Assembly: GCA_030043545.1 (NCBI GenBank)
Contig: JASHXM010000236.1
Span: forward strand, 1 to 5,875
DNA length: 5,875 bases
From: Thermoplasmata archaeon
Lineage (GTDB): Archaea > Thermoplasmatota > Thermoplasmata > Lutacidiplasmatales > UBA184
Direction: 5' to 3'
The notes under the pieces were generated by a model that worked only from the letters and a program-made list of their open reading frames with translations, ran no database searches and was not told where the DNA came from. Numbering within the stretch: position 1 is the stretch's first letter; every line of letters starts with the position of its first letter. Both the position numbers and the translations under genes were made by a program. Shown here piece after piece: positions 217 through 5,875 of the stretch.

Positions 217-777
217 CTACTCCGGGCGCGCCAGGCGACGAGCGTGACGCGCGAGCTCGGTGAGGTGGTCGCCGATCAGCTTGCGAGCCGTCGGGTCGGC
301 CAGCCGTCCGTCCGCGTCGAACTTCTGCGCGGCGAACGTGACGATCACCTCGGGGCGGTTGATCGGGAACATGTTGAGGAACACCATCGTCTGCCGCAGC
401 TCGTACTGCGCGCGGGCGCCGCCGATCATCCCGATCGAGGCGCTCATCAGGCCGGCGGGTTTGCCGTTCCACGCGTTCTCCGCCGGGGGCCGCGAGACCC
501 AATCGATCACGTTCTTCTCGGCGGCGGACAGGCCGTAGTTGTGCTCGTTGAGGGAGAAGAGGACCGCGTCGGCGCGACGGACCTGGTCCCGGAGGCGCCG
601 CACCGGTTCGGGGGCCGCCGGTTCCTCGTCCTGGTTGTACACCGGGAACCCCCGGATATCGGCGAGGTCGACGGTCACCCCGGCCGGCGCCACCTCCTGG
701 GCGGCGAGCAGCAGCCCGCGGCTGTACGCCTTCGCCCGGAGGCTTCCCGGGATGCCGAGGACCGAAAGGTTCGCCAT
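217..777 (-). CDS. NADPH-dependent FMN reductase family flavoprotein
   Basis: This 186-residue protein has the flavodoxin-like FMN_red fold (PF03358) that uses NAD(P)H to reduce FMN, quinones, chromate or azo compounds. The phosphate-binding loop GSLRAKAYS lies at residues 11-19 and PVYNQD at 45-50. The family signature NEHNYGLSAAEKNVIDWVSRP lies at 77-97, where most relatives have PEYNYS-P--KN-IDW-SRP, and GGARAQYELR at 119-128 is the usual later motif. It has no signal peptide or membrane segment, so it should be cytosolic. The length is typical. ATG at 775-777 sits six codons before the first conserved strand. The gene follows the AAA-associated gene by 51 bases in the same direction, so it may be the last gene of the transporter operon, but a functional link is not demonstrated. 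The exact substrate cannot be told from sequence. Azoreductase, quinone reductase and chromate reductase annotations are all common for this family. Confidence 0.92.
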   Translation of the reverse strand: MANLSVLGIPGSLRAKAYSRGLLLAAQEVAPAGVTVDLADIRGFPVYNQDEEPAAPEPVRRLRDQVRRADAVLFSLNEHNYGLSAAEKNVIDWVSRPPAENAWNGKPAGLMSASIGMIGGARAQYELRQTMVFLNMFPINRPEVIVTFAAQKFDADGRLADPTARKLIGDHLTELARHARRLARPE

Positions 778-828
778 CGTCCGGGCCCGCTCCCCGTCCG
801 CTGACGAAACGATCCGGCGACGGGTCCC

Positions 829-1440
829 TTACGTCGCCACGGACGCCGCGCCCGCTCCCGGCATCTCGGGAGGTTGCGCTCCCGACCGGCGCGTCGCGGC
901 GGCCGGCGTCGTGGGAGTCCCGGAGGTCGGGGGAGGCGGCGTCCGACCGCCGGTCGACTTCGAGGCGGGGGTCGGCGTGTGCGCGAGCAGCCGGTGCCCC
1001 GCCGAGTCGTACCGGAACAGGTCGGCGTACCGGCCCCAGGTGACGATCGTCTGGATCGTCTCTTCGCTGGGGGGGGTCGTCAGGGAGACGATCTGTCCCA
1101 GTTCCTGGTCGGAGAGCTCCCGCTGGGGCGCGTTCTCGAGCGCCCGGACCAGCGTCTTGAACAGGGTCGTGCGGCGGAGCTGTTCCCGGAGGATCGTCTT
1201 GCGTCCGCGGATCGTCCCGGCGACCAGCTTCTTCCCGAGGTCGGTGAACGTCGCCCGGCCGTCGGAGACCTTCACGAGCTGCAGGATCTCGGCGTAGTCG
1301 AGCGCCGGCAGGATCTCGTCGATCTCGAGGTCGAGATCATCCGCCAGGAGGGCGACGTCCTCGGAGCCGTGGTGGCCGTTGAGCAGCACCAGGAGACCGA
1401 GCATCTCGGTCGGACTGCATTTCGGATAACTGGTCGGCAC
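829..1440 (-). CDS. AAA-associated domain protein of ABC transporter (PF09821-like)
   Basis: This 203-residue protein resembles the AAA_assoc_C domain (PF09821), which is often fused to the C-terminus of nitrate/sulfonate-type ABC ATPases but here is a separate gene 47 bases after the ATPase. Residues 10-72 look like a winged helix (PTEMLGLLVLLNGHHG, then DEILPALDYAEILQL, then FTDLGKKL). Residues 74-149 are the second, helical part, ending with WGRYADLFRYD at 135-145. Residues 154-203 are a Pro/Thr/Ala-rich, probably disordered tail outside the domain. The start is GTG at 1438-1440, with GGGGGGTGA 12 bases upstream as a plausible ribosome binding site. An internal ATG (residue 13) would cut into the domain. 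The molecular role is unknown; regulation or coupling of the ATPase is an inference from fusion partners. A cytosolic location is expected. Confidence 0.85.
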   Translation of the reverse strand: MPTSYPKCSPTEMLGLLVLLNGHHGSEDVALLADDLDLEIDEILPALDYAEILQLVKVSDGRATFTDLGKKLVAGTIRGRKTILREQLRRTTLFKTLVRALENAPQRELSDQELGQIVSLTTPPSEETIQTIVTWGRYADLFRYDSAGHRLLAHTPTPASKSTGGRTPPPPTSGTPTTPAAATRRSGAQPPEMPGAGAASVAT

Positions 1441-1452
1441 GGGCGCAGCGGC

Positions 1453-1461
1453 TCACCCCCC
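1453..1461 (-). promoter_or_regulatory. Ribosome binding site deciding a GTG start
   Basis: The minus strand reads GGGGGGTGA, complementary to the UCACC core at the 3' end of archaeal 16S rRNA. It ends 12 bases before the GTG at 1440, a slightly long spacing, but there is no ATG nearby in frame before residue 13. It supports the GTG start of the AAA-associated protein. Confidence 0.5.
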
Positions 1462-1475
1462 TCTACGGGCCGCCT

Positions 1476-1487
1476 CTTTTAGCTTTA
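1476..1487 (-). promoter_or_regulatory. Possible internal TATA-like box
   Basis: On the minus strand the gap between the ATPase stop codon and the AAA-associated gene reads AAAGCTAAAAGAGG, an unusually AT-rich stretch in this GC-rich window. Its centre is about 40 bases before the GTG start. A start of transcription about 26 bases downstream would fall at the proposed ribosome binding site, leaving a leader of about 15 bases. It may let the last two genes be expressed separately from the transporter, but it may be incidental. Confidence 0.25.
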
Positions 1488-2291
1488 TCACGGCACGGCG
1501 CGCGGCTCGGGCGCCGCGGGGGTCGGGGGCGGTGCGCCCCCCTCGGTGATCAGCGAGTAGACCCGGTCGGTGAGCTCGTAGAAGGCGGCGCTCTTCCGGT
1601 CCCGGGGGCGCGGAAGTCCGATCGTCACCTCCGCGAGGACGTGCGACGGCCGGCGCGACATCACCACCACCCGGTCGGCGAGCTGGATCGCCTCTTCGAT
1701 GTTGTGGGTGACGAGCACGACCGCTTCCGGGGGGAGCTGGGGGTCGCTCCACAGCTGGAGGATCTCCTCCCGGAGGCTCTCCGCCGTGAGCGCGTCGAGC
1801 GAGCTGAACGGCTCGTCCATCAAGAGCACGGCGGGCTCGACGGCGAGCGCGCGCGCGAGCCCGACCCGCTGGCGCATCCCGCCCGACAGCTCGCGCGGGT
1901 ACGCTTCCTGGAACCCGTCGAGGCCGGTCACCGAGACGTACCGCTCGACCTGGGCGGCGATCTTCTCCTTGGAGGCCCCGACGGCCTCCAAGCCGAAGCC
2001 GACGTTCTGCGCGACGGTGAGCCACGGGTAGAGCGCGAAGCTCTGGAACACCATCGCCATCTGCGTGCAGACCTTTTCGACGGGCCGGTCCCGGAAGGTG
2101 ATCGTGCCCGCGGTCGGGTGATCGAGCCCCTGGATCAAGCGGAGGAGCGTCGACTTCCCGCACCCGGACGGGCCGACGATCGCGACGAAGTCGGCGTCCT
2201 TCACCTCGAACGAGATCCCCTGCATGATCCCGATCGAGCCGTGGCGCGACGGGAAGCTCTTGTCGACCCGATCGACCCGGATCAGCGCCAT
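1488..2291 (-). CDS. ABC transporter ATP-binding protein, nitrate/sulfonate/taurine type
   Basis: This 267-residue ATPase energises the membrane transporter encoded just upstream. All nucleotide-binding motifs are intact: Walker A GPSGCGKST at 40-48, Q-loop Q83 in MVFQSFALYPWLTV, signature LSGGMRQRVGLARAL at 135-149, Walker B VLLMDEP at 155-161, D-loop SSLDA, and the switch histidine H196 in VTHNIEEA. The FQSFALYPWLT context is characteristic of the NitT/TauT family. The C-terminus (252-267) is a Pro/Ala-rich extension with no domain, whereas many relatives continue here into the AAA-associated domain; in this genome that domain is the next gene. ATG at 2289-2291 is preceded by GAGGAG ten bases upstream. 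The gene starts 41 bases after the permease stop codon. It should form the cytosolic part of the complex, probably as a homodimer under the single duplicated permease (inference). Confidence 0.95.
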   Translation of the reverse strand: MALIRVDRVDKSFPSRHGSIGIMQGISFEVKDADFVAIVGPSGCGKSTLLRLIQGLDHPTAGTITFRDRPVEKVCTQMAMVFQSFALYPWLTVAQNVGFGLEAVGASKEKIAAQVERYVSVTGLDGFQEAYPRELSGGMRQRVGLARALAVEPAVLLMDEPFSSLDALTAESLREEILQLWSDPQLPPEAVVLVTHNIEEAIQLADRVVVMSRRPSHVLAEVTIGLPRPRDRKSAAFYELTDRVYSLITEGGAPPPTPAAPEPRAVP

Positions 2292-2332
2292 CGGCGGCCT
2301 ACTCCTCGGGGACCCACGGGGCCGGGTCACGG

Positions 2333-4072
2333 TCAGTCGTACCGGAACCGCTCCGCCGCCCGGCGGTAGAGCGGCTTCCATATGAGCTCGTTGATGACGA
2401 CGACGGTGGCGACGAGCGTGAACAGCGCGGCGACGAGCAGCGGCGTGCCGCCCGGCTCCGCGTAGCCGATGTCGATCTGCTGGCCGATCCCGAGGACGCT
2501 CAGCGACCGGGCGCTCCCGGACTTGAGGTACTCCGCGACGATCAGGGTGTTCCACCCGCCGCCGAACGCCGTGATCGAACCGGTTACGAGCGCGGGAAAG
2601 ACGCCGGGGAGCAGCACCCGGCGGAAGAACTGACGGCCCTTGAGGCCGAACGAGCGGGCCGCTTCCTCGAGATCCGGCGCCAGCCCCCGGACGCCCGCGA
2701 GGAGGTTGAAGAAGAGGTACCAGAGCATCCCGGTGAGGAGCATCAGGATCGAGGCGCCCTCGGGGCCGAGGTACGGGATCAGCTCGAAGACGATCACGGG
2801 GAACAGCGCCGTCGCGGGGAACGACGCGATGACCTCGACGATCGGGAGACCGACCCGCGCCGCGGACCGCCGGCGGGCGAGCAGCATCGCGAGGGGCAGG
2901 GAGATCGCAAGACAGATCGCGTACGCGGCCACGATCCGCGCGGTCGACGCCCCCATCGCGAGCGGGAGGGCGTAGATCTGCGACCGGACCGAGTCGGCGA
3001 TCGGGCCGGTGAAGACCCGGAAGACGCTCACCGTGATCGCGATCATCATCAGCCAGACGATGACGAGGATCGAACCGAGCGCGAGGTAGTAGAACACCGA
3101 CCGCTGGAACGCGGTCGGTTTGCGGACCGGCCGCACGGAGATCGAGGCGAGTTGCACGAGCGGCGTCGAGAGCCGAGAGACCCCCGACCGAACGCCGCGC
3201 GTCACGTACGCGGCGGCCCGGTGGAACCGCCCGCTGGGGTCTCGCGTCGGCGTCACGTCGGCCGACTCGCCGGACGGCGACGTGTCGTAGCGGAACCGCT
3301 CCGCGTACCGGCCGAGCGGCCGCCAGACGACGAAGTCGAGGAGCGCGATGACGATCACGAGCACGATGAGGCCGGCGAGGAACGCATCCGTCTCGTGGCC
3401 GCTCGCGGCGAAGGAGAGATAGCTGCCGATCCCGGCGAGCGGCCGGGTGTTCGTCGTGAAGATCTCCGCCTCGACGAGGAAGAACCAGCCGCCGGTCCAG
3501 GAGAGGACCGAGTTGTAGACGAGCCGGTTCACGGTCGCGGGGAACAGCACGCGGCGAAACCGGAACCCGCCGTGGGCGCCGAACGCGTCGGACGCCTCGC
3601 GGAGCTCGGCCGGGAGGGTCTTGAGCGACTCGTAGACGCCGAAGACCATGTTCCACGACATCGACGTGAAGATCAGGAACACCGAGGCGATGTTCGGCCC
3701 GAGCCAGGCGACCGCCGGCGTCAGCCCGACGAAGAAGTAGATCGCGACGGGGAAGAACCCCAGGATCGGGACCGACTGGAGGATGTCGAGGATCGGGATC
3801 ATCACCCGCTCGCTCGACCGGTGGGTCGCGGCGTAGTAGCCGTACGCCAACGCGAACCCGAGGGAGGCCGCGTACGCAGCGCACATCCGCGCGAACGAGT
3901 AGACGATGTCGACGGACGCCGTCGGCAGATGGGCCGCGATGCCGAGGAGCGTCCCTCCGAACGATTCGAAGCCGACGACCGCGGCGAGCGTCGGCAGCGC
4001 CGCGTAGAGCAGCAGCGCGGGGACCGCCGGTAGCCGGAACGTCGTGGGGCGCGCCCGGTCCGTTTCCGTCAT
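2333..4072 (-). CDS. Duplicated (fused) ABC anion-type transporter permease
   Basis: This 579-residue membrane protein contains two BPD_transp_1-type permease domains in one chain, matching the 'duplicated permease component' type of nitrate/sulfonate-like ABC systems (COG4986-like). The first half (about 15-263) has hydrophobic segments near 14-35, 60-80, 93-117, 122-146, 185-200 and 230-250, with EAA loop EASDAFGAHGGFRFRRVLFP at 159-178. A hydrophilic linker (264-318) is followed by the second half (about 322-579), with segments near 328-352, 378-398, 408-432, 440-462, 495-513 and 543-563 and a second EAA loop EAARSFG...LLP from about 470 to 489. The EAA loops are where the ATPase docks. 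Both halves end in a near-identical tail, AERFRYD. I chose ATG 4072 over an upstream ATG at 4186: it has GGAGG directly upstream and a promoter about 40 bases away, and the extra 38 residues are Pro/Arg/Gly-rich and non-family. No substrate-binding protein is nearby, so the substrate is unknown. Confidence 0.93.
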   Translation of the reverse strand: MTETDRARPTTFRLPAVPALLLYAALPTLAAVVGFESFGGTLLGIAAHLPTASVDIVYSFARMCAAYAASLGFALAYGYYAATHRSSERVMIPILDILQSVPILGFFPVAIYFFVGLTPAVAWLGPNIASVFLIFTSMSWNMVFGVYESLKTLPAELREASDAFGAHGGFRFRRVLFPATVNRLVYNSVLSWTGGWFFLVEAEIFTTNTRPLAGIGSYLSFAASGHETDAFLAGLIVLVIVIALLDFVVWRPLGRYAERFRYDTSPSGESADVTPTRDPSGRFHRAAAYVTRGVRSGVSRLSTPLVQLASISVRPVRKPTAFQRSVFYYLALGSILVIVWLMMIAITVSVFRVFTGPIADSVRSQIYALPLAMGASTARIVAAYAICLAISLPLAMLLARRRSAARVGLPIVEVIASFPATALFPVIVFELIPYLGPEGASILMLLTGMLWYLFFNLLAGVRGLAPDLEEAARSFGLKGRQFFRRVLLPGVFPALVTGSITAFGGGWNTLIVAEYLKSGSARSLSVLGIGQQIDIGYAEPGGTPLLVAALFTLVATVVVINELIWKPLYRRAAERFRYD

Positions 4073-4186: not shown

Positions 4187-4196
4187 TGTTTATCAA
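4187..4196 (+). promoter_or_regulatory. TATA-like promoter of the tRNA-Gln / tRNA-Leu unit
   Basis: TGTTTATCAA is the most AT-rich stretch of the divergent region and lies 24-33 bases before the first base of tRNA-Gln at 4220, the expected spacing for an archaeal TATA box. No comparable box lies in the 27 bases before tRNA-Leu, so this promoter probably drives both tRNAs, and perhaps the phosphatase gene. Confidence 0.65.
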
Positions 4197-4219: not shown

Positions 4220-4326
4220 AGCCCCGTGGTGTAGTGGCCAATCATGCGAGACTCTGGATCTCGCGACGCAGGTTCGAACGCCGCGGGCCCCCGCGTACCC
4301 GCCGGCCGGAACTCCTGCCGGGGCTA
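4220..4326 (+). tRNA. tRNA-Gln (anticodon CTG) with a T-loop intron
   Basis: The gene is 107 bases, with a 34-base intron (4279-4312), leaving a 73-base mature tRNA. The acceptor stem pairs AGCCCCG (4220-4226) with CGGGGCT (4319-4325) at all seven positions, followed by discriminator A4326. An A1-U72 start is common in archaeal glutamine tRNAs. The anticodon stem CGAGA/TCTCG (4247-4251, 4259-4263) encloses loop CTCTGGA, so the anticodon is CTG at 4254-4256. The T-stem GCAGG (4268-4272) finds its partner CCTGC only at 4314-4318, after the intron. Splicing at 59/60 restores the standard loop TTCGAAT. There is no anticodon-loop intron and no encoded CCA. The D-stem is weak (G-U and U-U pairs), as in related archaeal tRNAs. 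It is followed after 27 bases by tRNA-Leu. Confidence 0.93.
4279..4312 (+). other. Non-canonical tRNA intron, position 59/60 of tRNA-Gln
   Basis: The boundary folds into a textbook hBHBh' motif. The outer helix is the T-stem GCAGG/CCTGC. The central 4-bp helix pairs TTCG (4273-4276) with CGGA (4307-4310), including one T-G pair. The 3-base bulges are AAC (4277-4279) and ACT (4311-4313). The inner intron helix starts GCCG/CGGC and continues CGGG/CCCG after one bulged C. Archaeal splicing endonuclease cuts after the second base of each bulge, which gives exactly the predicted borders. Confidence 0.88.
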
Positions 4327-4377
4327 CTCGGCGGTTCGAGTCGCGCTTCCGGTGCGGGGGTGCTCCAGCTCGGCCAA

Positions 4378-4404
4378 TCCGTGCGGCGACGCCGCCGGGG
4401 CCAG
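4378..4404 (+). other. Non-canonical tRNA intron, position 21/22 of tRNA-Leu
   Basis: This 27-base intron follows the conserved A21 of the D-loop. The BHB motif has central helix GGCC (4372-4375) with GGCC (4399-4402), bulges AAT (4376-4378) and AGC (4403-4405), and outer helix CTC/GAG (4369-4371, 4406-4408). The intron itself is a tight hairpin: CCG/CGG, one bulged T, then GCGGC/GCCGC closed by GAC. Cutting after the second base of each bulge restores a normal D-loop (AGCTCGGCCAA) and D-stem. Confidence 0.87.
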
Positions 4405-4452
4405 CGAGGCAGGGCTTAGGACCCTGTTGCCCAGGGCATACGCCGGTTCAAA

Positions 4453-4487
4453 CGGTCGGGCGGTCGATCCGGCCGCCGACCGGAAAC
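4453..4487 (+). other. Non-canonical tRNA intron, position 59/60 of tRNA-Leu
   Basis: This 35-base intron sits at the same T-loop position as the one in tRNA-Gln. The bulges are AAC (4451-4453) and ACT (4486-4488), identical to those of tRNA-Gln. The central helix pairs TTCA (4447-4450) with GGAA (4482-4485): three pairs plus one A-G mismatch, so the motif is relaxed. The inner helix is strong, GGTCGG/CCGACC extended by CGG/CCG past one bulged G. Splicing gives T-loop TTCAAAT closed by GCCGG/CCGGC. Confidence 0.82.
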
Positions 4488-4527
4488 TCCGGCCCCCCGC
4501 ACTCTCGCCCCGATAGGGGGCGCGCCG

Positions 4528-5460
4528 ATGGACATCGCCGACGCGACGCTGGACGCGATCGCCCGCGCCGATGCCGCTTCGATCGACCGCCTGCTCGACG
4601 AACTCGAGTCGGCCGTGCCGCGCCGGGCCGGGGCGCATCCGATCGACGTCCCCGGGGCGACCGAGGCGCTGGTCTTCGGAGACACGCACGGGGACCTCGC
4701 GACGATCCGGGCGATCGTGGGACGCTTCGCCGCGTCGCCGGCCGCGGTCCTCGTCGGGCTCGGCGACTACGTCGACCGGACGCCCGCGGCGACTCCGGGC
4801 GGCTCGGCGATCGGAGCGCTCTATCTGCTGGCGACCGCGGCGCGCGCCCCCGAGCGGGTGGTCCTCGTGCAGGGGAACCACGAGAACGCTCGACGGATCC
4901 CGTTCCATCCCCGCGACCTGCCGGACGAGGTGCGGCAACTGTGGGGTCCGGACCCGAGCCGGACGGACCGGATCGTGCGGCTGTTGGAGCGGGGTCCGCT
5001 GTCGGCCTGGACCCCGAGCGGGGCGTACCTCGCCCACGCCGGGTTCCCCCGCGGTCCGCTGCCCACCCCGTGGAGCCGCGCGTTCGACGCGGTCGACGAC
5101 GATCGGCTCGCCGAGATCGTCTGGGCGGAGTGCGCCGCCTCCCGGATCCGACGCGGCGCCGCGCCCGCGTTCGACGAGTCCGCCCTCCGCGAGTTCCTCG
5201 CCGCCACGGGGCTCTCGGTCTTCCTCCGAGGGCACGACCCGGATCTCACCGGACGGCCGGTGTACGGCGGGCGCTGCCTCACGCTTCACTCGACCCGGGT
5301 CTTCGCCCAGTACGGGGGGGTGCTTCTCGCGCACCTCCCCCTACGGGAACCGGCGACCGACGTCGGTACGCTCCGGATCGAGCGGCTTCCGGTCGGAGGA
5401 GCCGGGACGAACGGCGCCTCGGCTACCCCGGTCCGCCGAACTCACGACGCTCCGCCGTGA
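4528..5460 (+). CDS. PPP-family (calcineurin-like) metallophosphatase
   Basis: This 310-residue protein carries the complete PPP phosphatase metal site. GDTHGD at 51-56 gives D52 and H54, GDYVDR at 79-84 gives the bridging D80 plus D83/R84, and GNHEN at 116-120 gives N117 and catalytic H118. HAG at 170-172 gives H170, and LRGHD at 233-237 gives H236 (the RAHQ motif of eukaryotic PP1), followed by LTLHSTRVF (251-259) in place of LFSAPNYC. The family hydrolyses phosphoserine/threonine or other phosphomonoesters with two metal ions. The target here is unknown. Residues 1-45 form a helical N-terminal extension, and about 283-310 is a Gly/Ala/Thr-rich tail that overlaps the opposing gene. There is no signal peptide, so it should be cytosolic. 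ATG at 4528 lies only 26 bases after tRNA-Leu with a weak AGGGGGCG upstream and no obvious TATA box, suggesting read-through from the tRNA unit or an undetected promoter inside tRNA-Leu. Confidence 0.9.
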   Translation: MDIADATLDAIARADAASIDRLLDELESAVPRRAGAHPIDVPGATEALVFGDTHGDLATIRAIVGRFAASPAAVLVGLGDYVDRTPAATPGGSAIGALYLLATAARAPERVVLVQGNHENARRIPFHPRDLPDEVRQLWGPDPSRTDRIVRLLERGPLSAWTPSGAYLAHAGFPRGPLPTPWSRAFDAVDDDRLAEIVWAECAASRIRRGAAPAFDESALREFLAATGLSVFLRGHDPDLTGRPVYGGRCLTLHSTRVFAQYGGVLLAHLPLREPATDVGTLRIERLPVGGAGTNGASATPVRRTHDAPP

Positions 5461-5875
5461 CCACCTCCGCGAACCCCGTCGCCGCGGCGTACGCCCGGAG
5501 CCGGCTCGCGTTCACGACGAGGAACTCGGGACCGCCGCGGAACCCCTCGAGGATCCGGGCGGCCGCTTCGGGGAACCCCAGGACGTACAGTCCGGCCGAC
5601 AACGCTTCGACGGTGTTCAGCTCCGCGAGTCGCCCGAAATGCTGGGGGTTCGCCGCCACGAGCAGCGGGAGACGGCGCCGTCGGGCCGGGTCTCCGGCCG
5701 ACCCCGGCGGGAGCGACCCGCGCTGCGCGATCCGGTTCCAGGAGCAGTCCACGGCGAGGAGTCCCTCGCGTCGTGCGAGCGACGCGTCGGAGGCGGACAG
5801 CGGGCGGCTCGCCCGGGGGTCCAGGACGAGCGGGCGCCGGCCCGGCGGCACGGACGACGAGGCCCACCCGCGGGC
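5423..5875 (-). CDS. tsr3: Tsr3-type 16S rRNA aminocarboxypropyltransferase (5' end outside window)
   Basis: About 150 C-terminal residues of a Tsr3 homologue (DUF367 / RLI-like N-terminal region family) are present; the rest lies right of the window. Tsr3 transfers the 3-amino-3-carboxypropyl group of S-adenosylmethionine to a hypermodified (pseudo)uridine in helix 31 of small-subunit rRNA, a late ribosome maturation step in archaea and eukaryotes. Recognisable blocks are LVLDPRASRPLSASD, LLAVDCSWNR, RRLPLLVAANPQHFGR with LNTVEALSAGLYVLG, and GGPEFLVVNASRLRAYA, in the family order. The frame stays open to the edge at 5875 through residues ARGWASSS before a GTG at 5851; family members carry a longer N-terminus, so that GTG is probably not the start. 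The 3' end overlaps the phosphatase gene by 38 bases tail-to-tail. The last residues (RREFGGPG) are poorly conserved. Confidence 0.93.
   Translation of the reverse strand, partial: ARGWASSSVPPGRRPLVLDPRASRPLSASDASLARREGLLAVDCSWNRIAQRGSLPPGSAGDPARRRRLPLLVAANPQHFGRLAELNTVEALSAGLYVLGFPEAAARILEGFRGGPEFLVVNASRLRAYAAATGFAEVVTAERREFGGPG

Follow-up and report, generated by a model that had tools for sequence, protein, structure and literature searches.

Results

A tRNA-Leu gene with two introns

The window, by which we mean the whole stretch of DNA that was analysed (5,875 nucleotides, contig JASHXM010000236.1 of assembly GCA_030043545.1, a Thermoplasmata archaeon), carries a 148-base gene for tRNA-Leu(UAG) at 4354-4501 of the plus strand, interrupted by two introns outside the anticodon loop (Table 1). 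Re-derivation of the exons gave the same coordinates and lengths as the original prediction, a 27-base intron at site 21/22, a 35-base intron at 59/60 and 86 bases after splicing, and the same split recurs in relatives. The joined exons yield an 86-nt class II tRNA with a 7-pair acceptor stem, 5-pair anticodon and T stems and a 4-pair variable arm. The earlier statement that all stems are paired holds for these elements, but not for the mature D-stem, which has only three pairs (10-12 with 23-25) and C.C at 13/22. In the minimum-energy fold of the spliced product (RNAfold), the acceptor and T stems form, and no cloverleaf appears in the D and anticodon region. The three exons follow in order within 148 bases, rather than being separate or reversed as in split or permuted tRNAs; with at least two introns in one gene and a tRNA of standard length, the gene belongs with the multi-intron tRNA genes of archaea. 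Judged by its sequence, this is a genuine tRNA gene with two introns, known in kind but unexpected in this lineage; its splicing is predicted.

Table 1. Features of the tRNA-Leu(UAG) locus (window positions; a slash within a bulge marks the predicted cut)
Feature	Position	Strand	Description and evidence
TATA-like box TTTATC	4189..4194	+	lies 31 bases before tRNA-Gln; may serve both genes as a promoter
tRNA-Gln(CUG)	4220..4326	+	34-nt T-loop intron 4279-4312; full 4-bp central helix
tRNA-Leu(UAG) gene	4354..4501	+	two introns, spliced length 86; exon/intron split, conservation, covariation
Exon 1	4354..4377	+	positions 1-21, 24 bases; same 24 bases (one being C or T) on 73 stretches
Bulge-helix-bulge 1	4369..4408	+	CTC 4369-4371 with GAG 4406-4408; GGCC 4372-4375 with GGCC 4399-4402
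Bulges of motif 1	4376-4378, 4403-4405	+	AA/T and AG/C
Intron 1	4378..4404	+	D-loop, 27 nt, site 21/22; conservation and covariation; missing in L062/L106 and L158
Exon 2	4405..4452	+	positions 22-59, 48 bases, anticodon UAG
Bulge-helix-bulge 2	4442..4493	+	weak centre; T-stem 4442-4446/4489-4493; TTC 4447-4449 with GAA 4483-4485; A4450.G4482 mismatch
Bulges of motif 2	4451-4453, 4486-4488	+	AA/C and AC/T; inner helix 4454-4459/4476-4481
Intron 2	4453..4487	+	T-loop, 35 nt, site 59/60; missing in 12 sister-genus genes (g24, g26, g27, g155)
Exon 3	4488..4501	+	positions 60-73, 14 bases

Neither ARAGORN nor the Rfam tRNA model reported this gene in the window. ARAGORN called a tRNA-Ala(CGC) and the tRNA-Gln(CUG), the latter wrongly ended at 4292; Rfam likewise found these two, scoring the tRNA-Gln below its cut-off. 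The tRNA-Gln gene, which lies 27 bases upstream, bears the T-loop intron that had already been noticed in a neighbouring gene, and tRNA-Leu(UAG) is likely co-transcribed with it. Among 23 distinct 60-base stretches taken from upstream, 20 contain the sequence TTTANN. Further neighbours lie at 217-4072 (minus strand), 4528-5457 (plus) and 5426-5875 (minus), the products being an FMN reductase, an AAA_assoc_C protein, an ABC transporter ATPase, a permease, a calcineurin-like phosphoesterase and a ribosome biogenesis protein (Ribo_biogen_C). A plasmid search with the phosphoesterase gave no match.

The host genome (1.22 Mb, 240 contigs, rated 61% complete) belongs to the genus of Ca. Lutacidiplasma silvani, since a genome of that genus (G361) bears a letter-for-letter identical gene (L246) at the matching contig position. 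NCBI assigns Ca. L. silvani to the Thermoplasmatota, Ca. Lutacidiplasmatales. As to a second complete tRNA-Leu(UAG), a case the original prediction had raised against this copy, a search of the host genome at its 61% completeness with one pattern, CTTAGGA...GTTCRAA, returned as sole other match C226:1699, which does not read as a tRNA. In a relative rated 100% complete (G044), the pattern has a single match.

Conservation in relatives

Scanning for the 24-base 5' exon returned 73 stretches in named genomes, whose records are titled Thermoplasmata archaeon (70), Euryarchaeota archaeon (1), bacterium (1) and Candidatus Lutacidiplasma silvani (1, L104). A complete gene of this kind, with one or both introns, is present on 72 of them; L156 is cut by a contig end. 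These 72 stretches and further genomes provided 73 distinct genes fitting the exon pattern, outside which genes with other exon letters fall (e.g. L238). This comparison with orthologous genes, proposed earlier as a check, revealed identical split sites: the T-loop intron is present in all 73 (32-38 nt) and the D-loop intron in 71 (24-35 nt). While all products are 86 nt long and comprise only 19 distinct mature sequences, the introns vary, and the boundary between exon and intron coincides with the boundary of conservation. In the host's genus, window included, 31 of 31 genes have the T-loop intron and 30 the D-loop intron, some genomes of the genus having yielded no gene. L062/L106 (one gene) and L158 have no D-loop intron, and their sequence at this site equals the predicted joined exons, CTCGGCCAA/CGAGGC. 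Site 2 is uninterrupted, reading TTCRAA/TCC, in 12 genes of the genera g24, g26, g27 and g155.

Splicing motifs and RNA structure

The D-loop intron lies in a strict bulge-helix-bulge motif, a 4-bp central helix between two 3-nt bulges: all four central pairs form in 69 of 71 genes, and all three outer pairs in 71 of 71. The T-loop intron departs from the strict form and has a relaxed one: in 70 of 73 genes its centre consists of three standard pairs and A57.G, and in the other 3 of four pairs. Given the window sequence, RNAfold leaves the central helix of motif 2 open and, in motif 1, pairs GCU with AGC rather than CUC with GAG. The trinucleotide CTC occurs twice before intron 1 (window 4363-4371), and the GAG at 4406-4408 is a possible partner for either copy. 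In the 22 T-loop introns of other tRNAs in the genomes G000 and G044, A57 faces an intron G in 12 of 12 cases and G57 a C in 10 of 10; as the facing intron base follows base 57, we argue that this central pair matters. The T-loop motif of tRNA-Asn has a C56.C mismatch in both genomes.

The hairpins within the introns are retained while their sequences change. For the 55 D-loop introns of 27 nt, 86% of cells are paired, against a mean of 62% in shuffled sequences and 34-53% in slid registers; for the 31 T-loop introns of 32 nt the values are 82%, 59% and 34-53%. The 39 T-loop introns of 35 nt have 63% of cells paired in the fixed register against 56% in shuffles, and fare better with a slide of +1 (68%), which we interpret as a one-base shift of the helix within the intron. 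When the structure with this one-base shift was tested for covariation on an ungapped alignment of the 29 genes of 148 nt, 66 cells had changed on both sides, compared to 25.5 (sd 4.2) in shuffles, none of 500 of which reached this value; the count includes pair 97/129, which never forms a standard pair. The 21 exon-exon pairs in the four stems are invariant in this alignment, and hence uninformative on covariation. The inner helices are imperfect: read in the fixed register, 25 of 71 D-loop introns and 28 of 73 T-loop introns have no more than three contiguous pairs.

Introns throughout the tRNA set

The host genome harbours 15 introns in 14 of 26 readable tRNA genes, distinct ones read by eye (27 rows, of which L023 is a cut duplicate). 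T loops hold 10 of the introns and D loops 3, together 13 of the 15, and the other 2 are in anticodon loops. The "extensive tRNA fragmentation" suspected originally is thus borne out as far as host-wide introns are concerned, but the wording is too strong, as the introns sit within one gene. G044 has 22 introns in 20 of 43 tRNA genes, partly read by eye, with 18 outside site 37/38: 14 T-loop, 4 D-loop (Met, Arg(GCG), Lys(UUU), Leu(UAG)) and 4 anticodon-loop introns. The 43 genes comprise 42 Rfam candidates (E up to 10) and tRNA-Leu(UAG), which the Rfam search missed. As ARAGORN and the Rfam model both miss it, tRNA counts of such genomes may be too low.

Two genes of G044 are doubly interrupted, tRNA-Leu(UAG) and tRNA-Lys(UUU). 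The latter was matched in 57 of 61 genomes of the family, and among 30 fetched genes from seven genera, read by eye, an extra D-loop stretch is present in 30 and a T-loop stretch in 29 (L265 being without). D-loop and T-loop introns in tRNA-Lys(UUU) are recorded for L210 and, with that exception, L265-L294.

Splicing endonuclease and ligase

Matches to the splicing endonuclease (EndA) family came from 36 of 41 genomes in one survey and 58 of 61 in another, for the most part with both domains encoded in a single frame; none was found in the host genome at 61% completeness, nor, for example, in G274 (94% complete). In the genus the protein has about 354 residues. It aligns over both repeats to the α'2 enzyme of Archaeoglobus fulgidus and has the α'2 build, two tandem repeats in one chain with a catalytic second repeat. 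Y292, H300 and K331, which we take to be the catalytic triad, are invariant in 14 aligned sequences. For an AlphaFold single-chain model of one relative's EndA (L046; pLDDT 92), the 41 PDB matches at E<=0.001 are splicing endonuclease chains, the best being, in order, those of the Methanopyrus kandleri fusion enzyme (5x89), A. fulgidus and Thermoplasma acidophilum. With 5x89 as the closest fold, it is the one-chain, two-repeat build that underlies the designation "α'-type".

PDB entry 3p1y, titled a chimeric A. fulgidus enzyme of broadest substrate specificity, has an insert between YGS and LSL. This insert, the Crenarchaea-specific loop, is absent in 31 of 31 EndA sequences of the family, all with identical spacing, and likewise in six outgroup sequences. 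The ligase RtcB was identified in 20 of 21 genomes, among them the host's.

Discussion

How might the two introns be removed? Very probably, the gene is a two-intron tRNA-Leu(UAG) whose introns an α'-type endonuclease is predicted to excise at bulge-helix-bulge motifs, after which RtcB would join the exons. In such motifs the cut falls after the second bulge base. Intron 1 would be cut at this position of a strict motif, with a centre of GGCC paired to GGCC and two 3-nt bulges; intron 2 would have to be recognized by a weaker centre, UUC with GRR plus the A57.G mismatch. The GAG closing motif 1 would also be the GAG of the mature D-stem. As the same bases serve both, the two helices compete, and we infer that splicing comes first and the D-stem forms afterwards.

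The gene might instead be a decayed tRNA-Leu pseudogene with chance hairpin insertions, as would fit with its being missed by the tRNA finders used (ARAGORN and the Rfam model) and with the high variability of both inserts. However, the near-constancy of the exons across 73 distinct genes with differing inserts, the covariation of the insert helices, and the fact that G044, rated 100% complete, has no other match to CTTAGGA...GTTCRAA make decay highly improbable. Even less credible is an assembly or binning artefact of a single metagenome: the named records are metagenome-assembled, but the 5' exon recurs on 73 named stretches, 72 with the complete gene, and the genomes of the genus have the T-loop intron in 31 of 31 and the D-loop intron in 30 of 31 genes. 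So many separate assemblies rule out one faulty metagenome. A third reading concerns the origin of the introns, namely recent transposition between tRNA genes, as proposed for Thermoproteales in the portion of PMC4033280 available. Many tRNAs have an intron at the common site 59/60, as transposition would predict, but the 14 T-loop introns of G044 are no more alike than shuffled sequences (mean 11.8 against 11.9), and the best pair scores 25, a value reached in 8 of 100 shuffles. Based on this one genome and with the last six intron bases left out, recent spread appears improbable.

The most serious competitor accepts intron 2 as real and holds that the α'-type endonuclease does not cut it alone. 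Its removal would then depend on a helper, on another nuclease, or on the tRNA body having folded once intron 1 is gone. In 70 of 73 genes the central helix is limited to three standard pairs, RNAfold leaves it open, the loop insert is absent in 31 of 31 family sequences, and reviews, in their excerpts, call α'2 enzymes narrow (PMC6379350, PMC4033280). Yet PMC6379350 also describes, in the part consulted, excision by the A. fulgidus α'2 enzyme of a BHL intron located at 37/38 in full-length pre-tRNA, and homodimeric forms are stated to cleave BHL-like motifs in the accessible text of PMC8707768. On balance we consider the need for such assistance unlikely, though worth keeping in mind, and retain cleavage of both introns by the α'-type enzyme as the preferred reading. 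As far as these excerpts go, the literature is split on α'2 enzymes and relaxed motifs, PMC6379350 describing them as narrow with an exception and PMC8707768 as able.

Multi-intron tRNA genes are known from Crenarchaeota, Nanoarchaeum, Methanopyrus, Methanothermobacter, Korarchaeum, ARMAN, Thaumarchaeota and Asgard archaea, and the same literature, cited here from excerpts, ties non-canonical introns to loop-bearing endonucleases (PMC4090602, PMC4033280, PMC6379350, PMC8707768, PMC8450103, PMC11291895, PMC9287336, PMC12397907). Two of the genera reported there belong to the Euryarchaeota, for which double introns in themselves are therefore no novelty. Euryarchaeota in general are described in the excerpt of PMC4090602 as having few introns, at the canonical site; their α4 and α'2 endonucleases go with few canonical introns, and broad specificity is said to have come with an inserted, lysine-bearing loop (PMC4090602, PMC4033280, PMC6379350, same excerpts).

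Compared with the known systems, again on the parts of the sources at hand, the multi-intron genes of Thermoproteales (Crenarchaeota) are similar in having short bulge-helix-bulge introns at non-canonical sites, several per gene, but are served by an (αβ)2 enzyme with the Crenarchaea-specific loop, whereas the lineage here is Thermoplasmatota and the relatives' one-chain enzyme lacks the insert. Atabeyarchaeia and Freyarchaeia share non-canonical positions and multiple introns per gene, but are Asgard archaea with introns in 92-95% of tRNA genes (PMC11291895), as opposed to 20 of 43 in G044. Korarchaeum cryptofilum, called the sole archaeon combining a homodimeric α2 enzyme with non-canonical introns (PMC4033280), has an enzyme said there to share the specific loop, in contrast to the 31 Lutacidiplasmatales-family sequences. 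The α'2 enzymes of A. fulgidus (2GJW), T. acidophilum (2OHC) and Ferroplasma (PMC8707768) are likewise single chains of two repeats; 2GJW and 2OHC match the relatives' EndA by sequence and fold, but the first two enzymes have 305 and 289 residues, respectively, against about 354 (table in PMC6379350). The endonuclease of M. kandleri, the closest fold match and said to be without specific loops, differs in being of the (αβ)2 type fused as one chain, its specificity being described as constrained (PMC6379350).

Among the listed matches in open-licence literature, judged by title and start of abstract, none reported non-canonical tRNA introns in Lutacidiplasmatales, and in the accessible portion of the Lutacidiplasmatales paper the word "intron" does not occur. 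While multi-intron archaeal tRNA genes are already known, their pairing with this lineage and enzyme did not appear in the literature found. The relatives pair a loop-free one-chain, two-repeat enzyme with 18 non-canonical introns in a single genome (G044), and this enzyme type makes the two-intron gene a useful test case: if the enzyme cuts non-canonical sites, the rule of intron-endonuclease co-evolution needs revising. Tentatively, and with somewhat more doubt than conviction, we suggest that in an entire family of Thermoplasmatota D- and T-loop introns came to fill the tRNA genes although the endonuclease stayed a plain α'2 type. The specificity loop held to drive the spread of introns would then be unneeded, its role being taken by fine-tuning of the RNA, with G or C facing base 57.

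Intron gain and loss in the family

Our survey of tRNA-Leu(UAG) by genus, to which G344 and G358 contributed no readable gene, found no intron in g24 (5 genomes), the D-loop intron only in g26 (1), g155 (3) and g27 (3), and both introns in g25 (6) and g156 (5). An endonuclease tree groups g24, g26, g155 and g27 (support 99/94) and, separately, g25, g156 and g1 (100/99), without resolution of the branching order inside the latter group. In the simplest reading, the T-loop intron was gained on the stem of the g25/g156/g1 group, and the D-loop intron is either older and was lost in g24 and two g1 genes, or was gained twice. In other families of the order or class, 15 of 18 genes have neither intron and 3 have one (D-loop in L053; T-loop in L055 and L091). 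If the gain on the stem holds, L055, which belongs to another family of the order, would have acquired its T-loop intron separately; alternatively, that intron would point to an older origin with losses. The relatives represent the stages with neither intron, the D-loop intron only and both, and also absence of the D-loop intron inside the two-intron genus. Such a natural series of one gene with 0, 1 and 2 introns within a family makes gain and loss directly testable.

The intron lengths run mostly in steps of three, 24, 27, 30 or 33 nt for the D-loop intron in 69 of 71 genes and 32, 35 or 38 nt for the T-loop intron in 71 of 73, which in a non-coding RNA may reflect few events.
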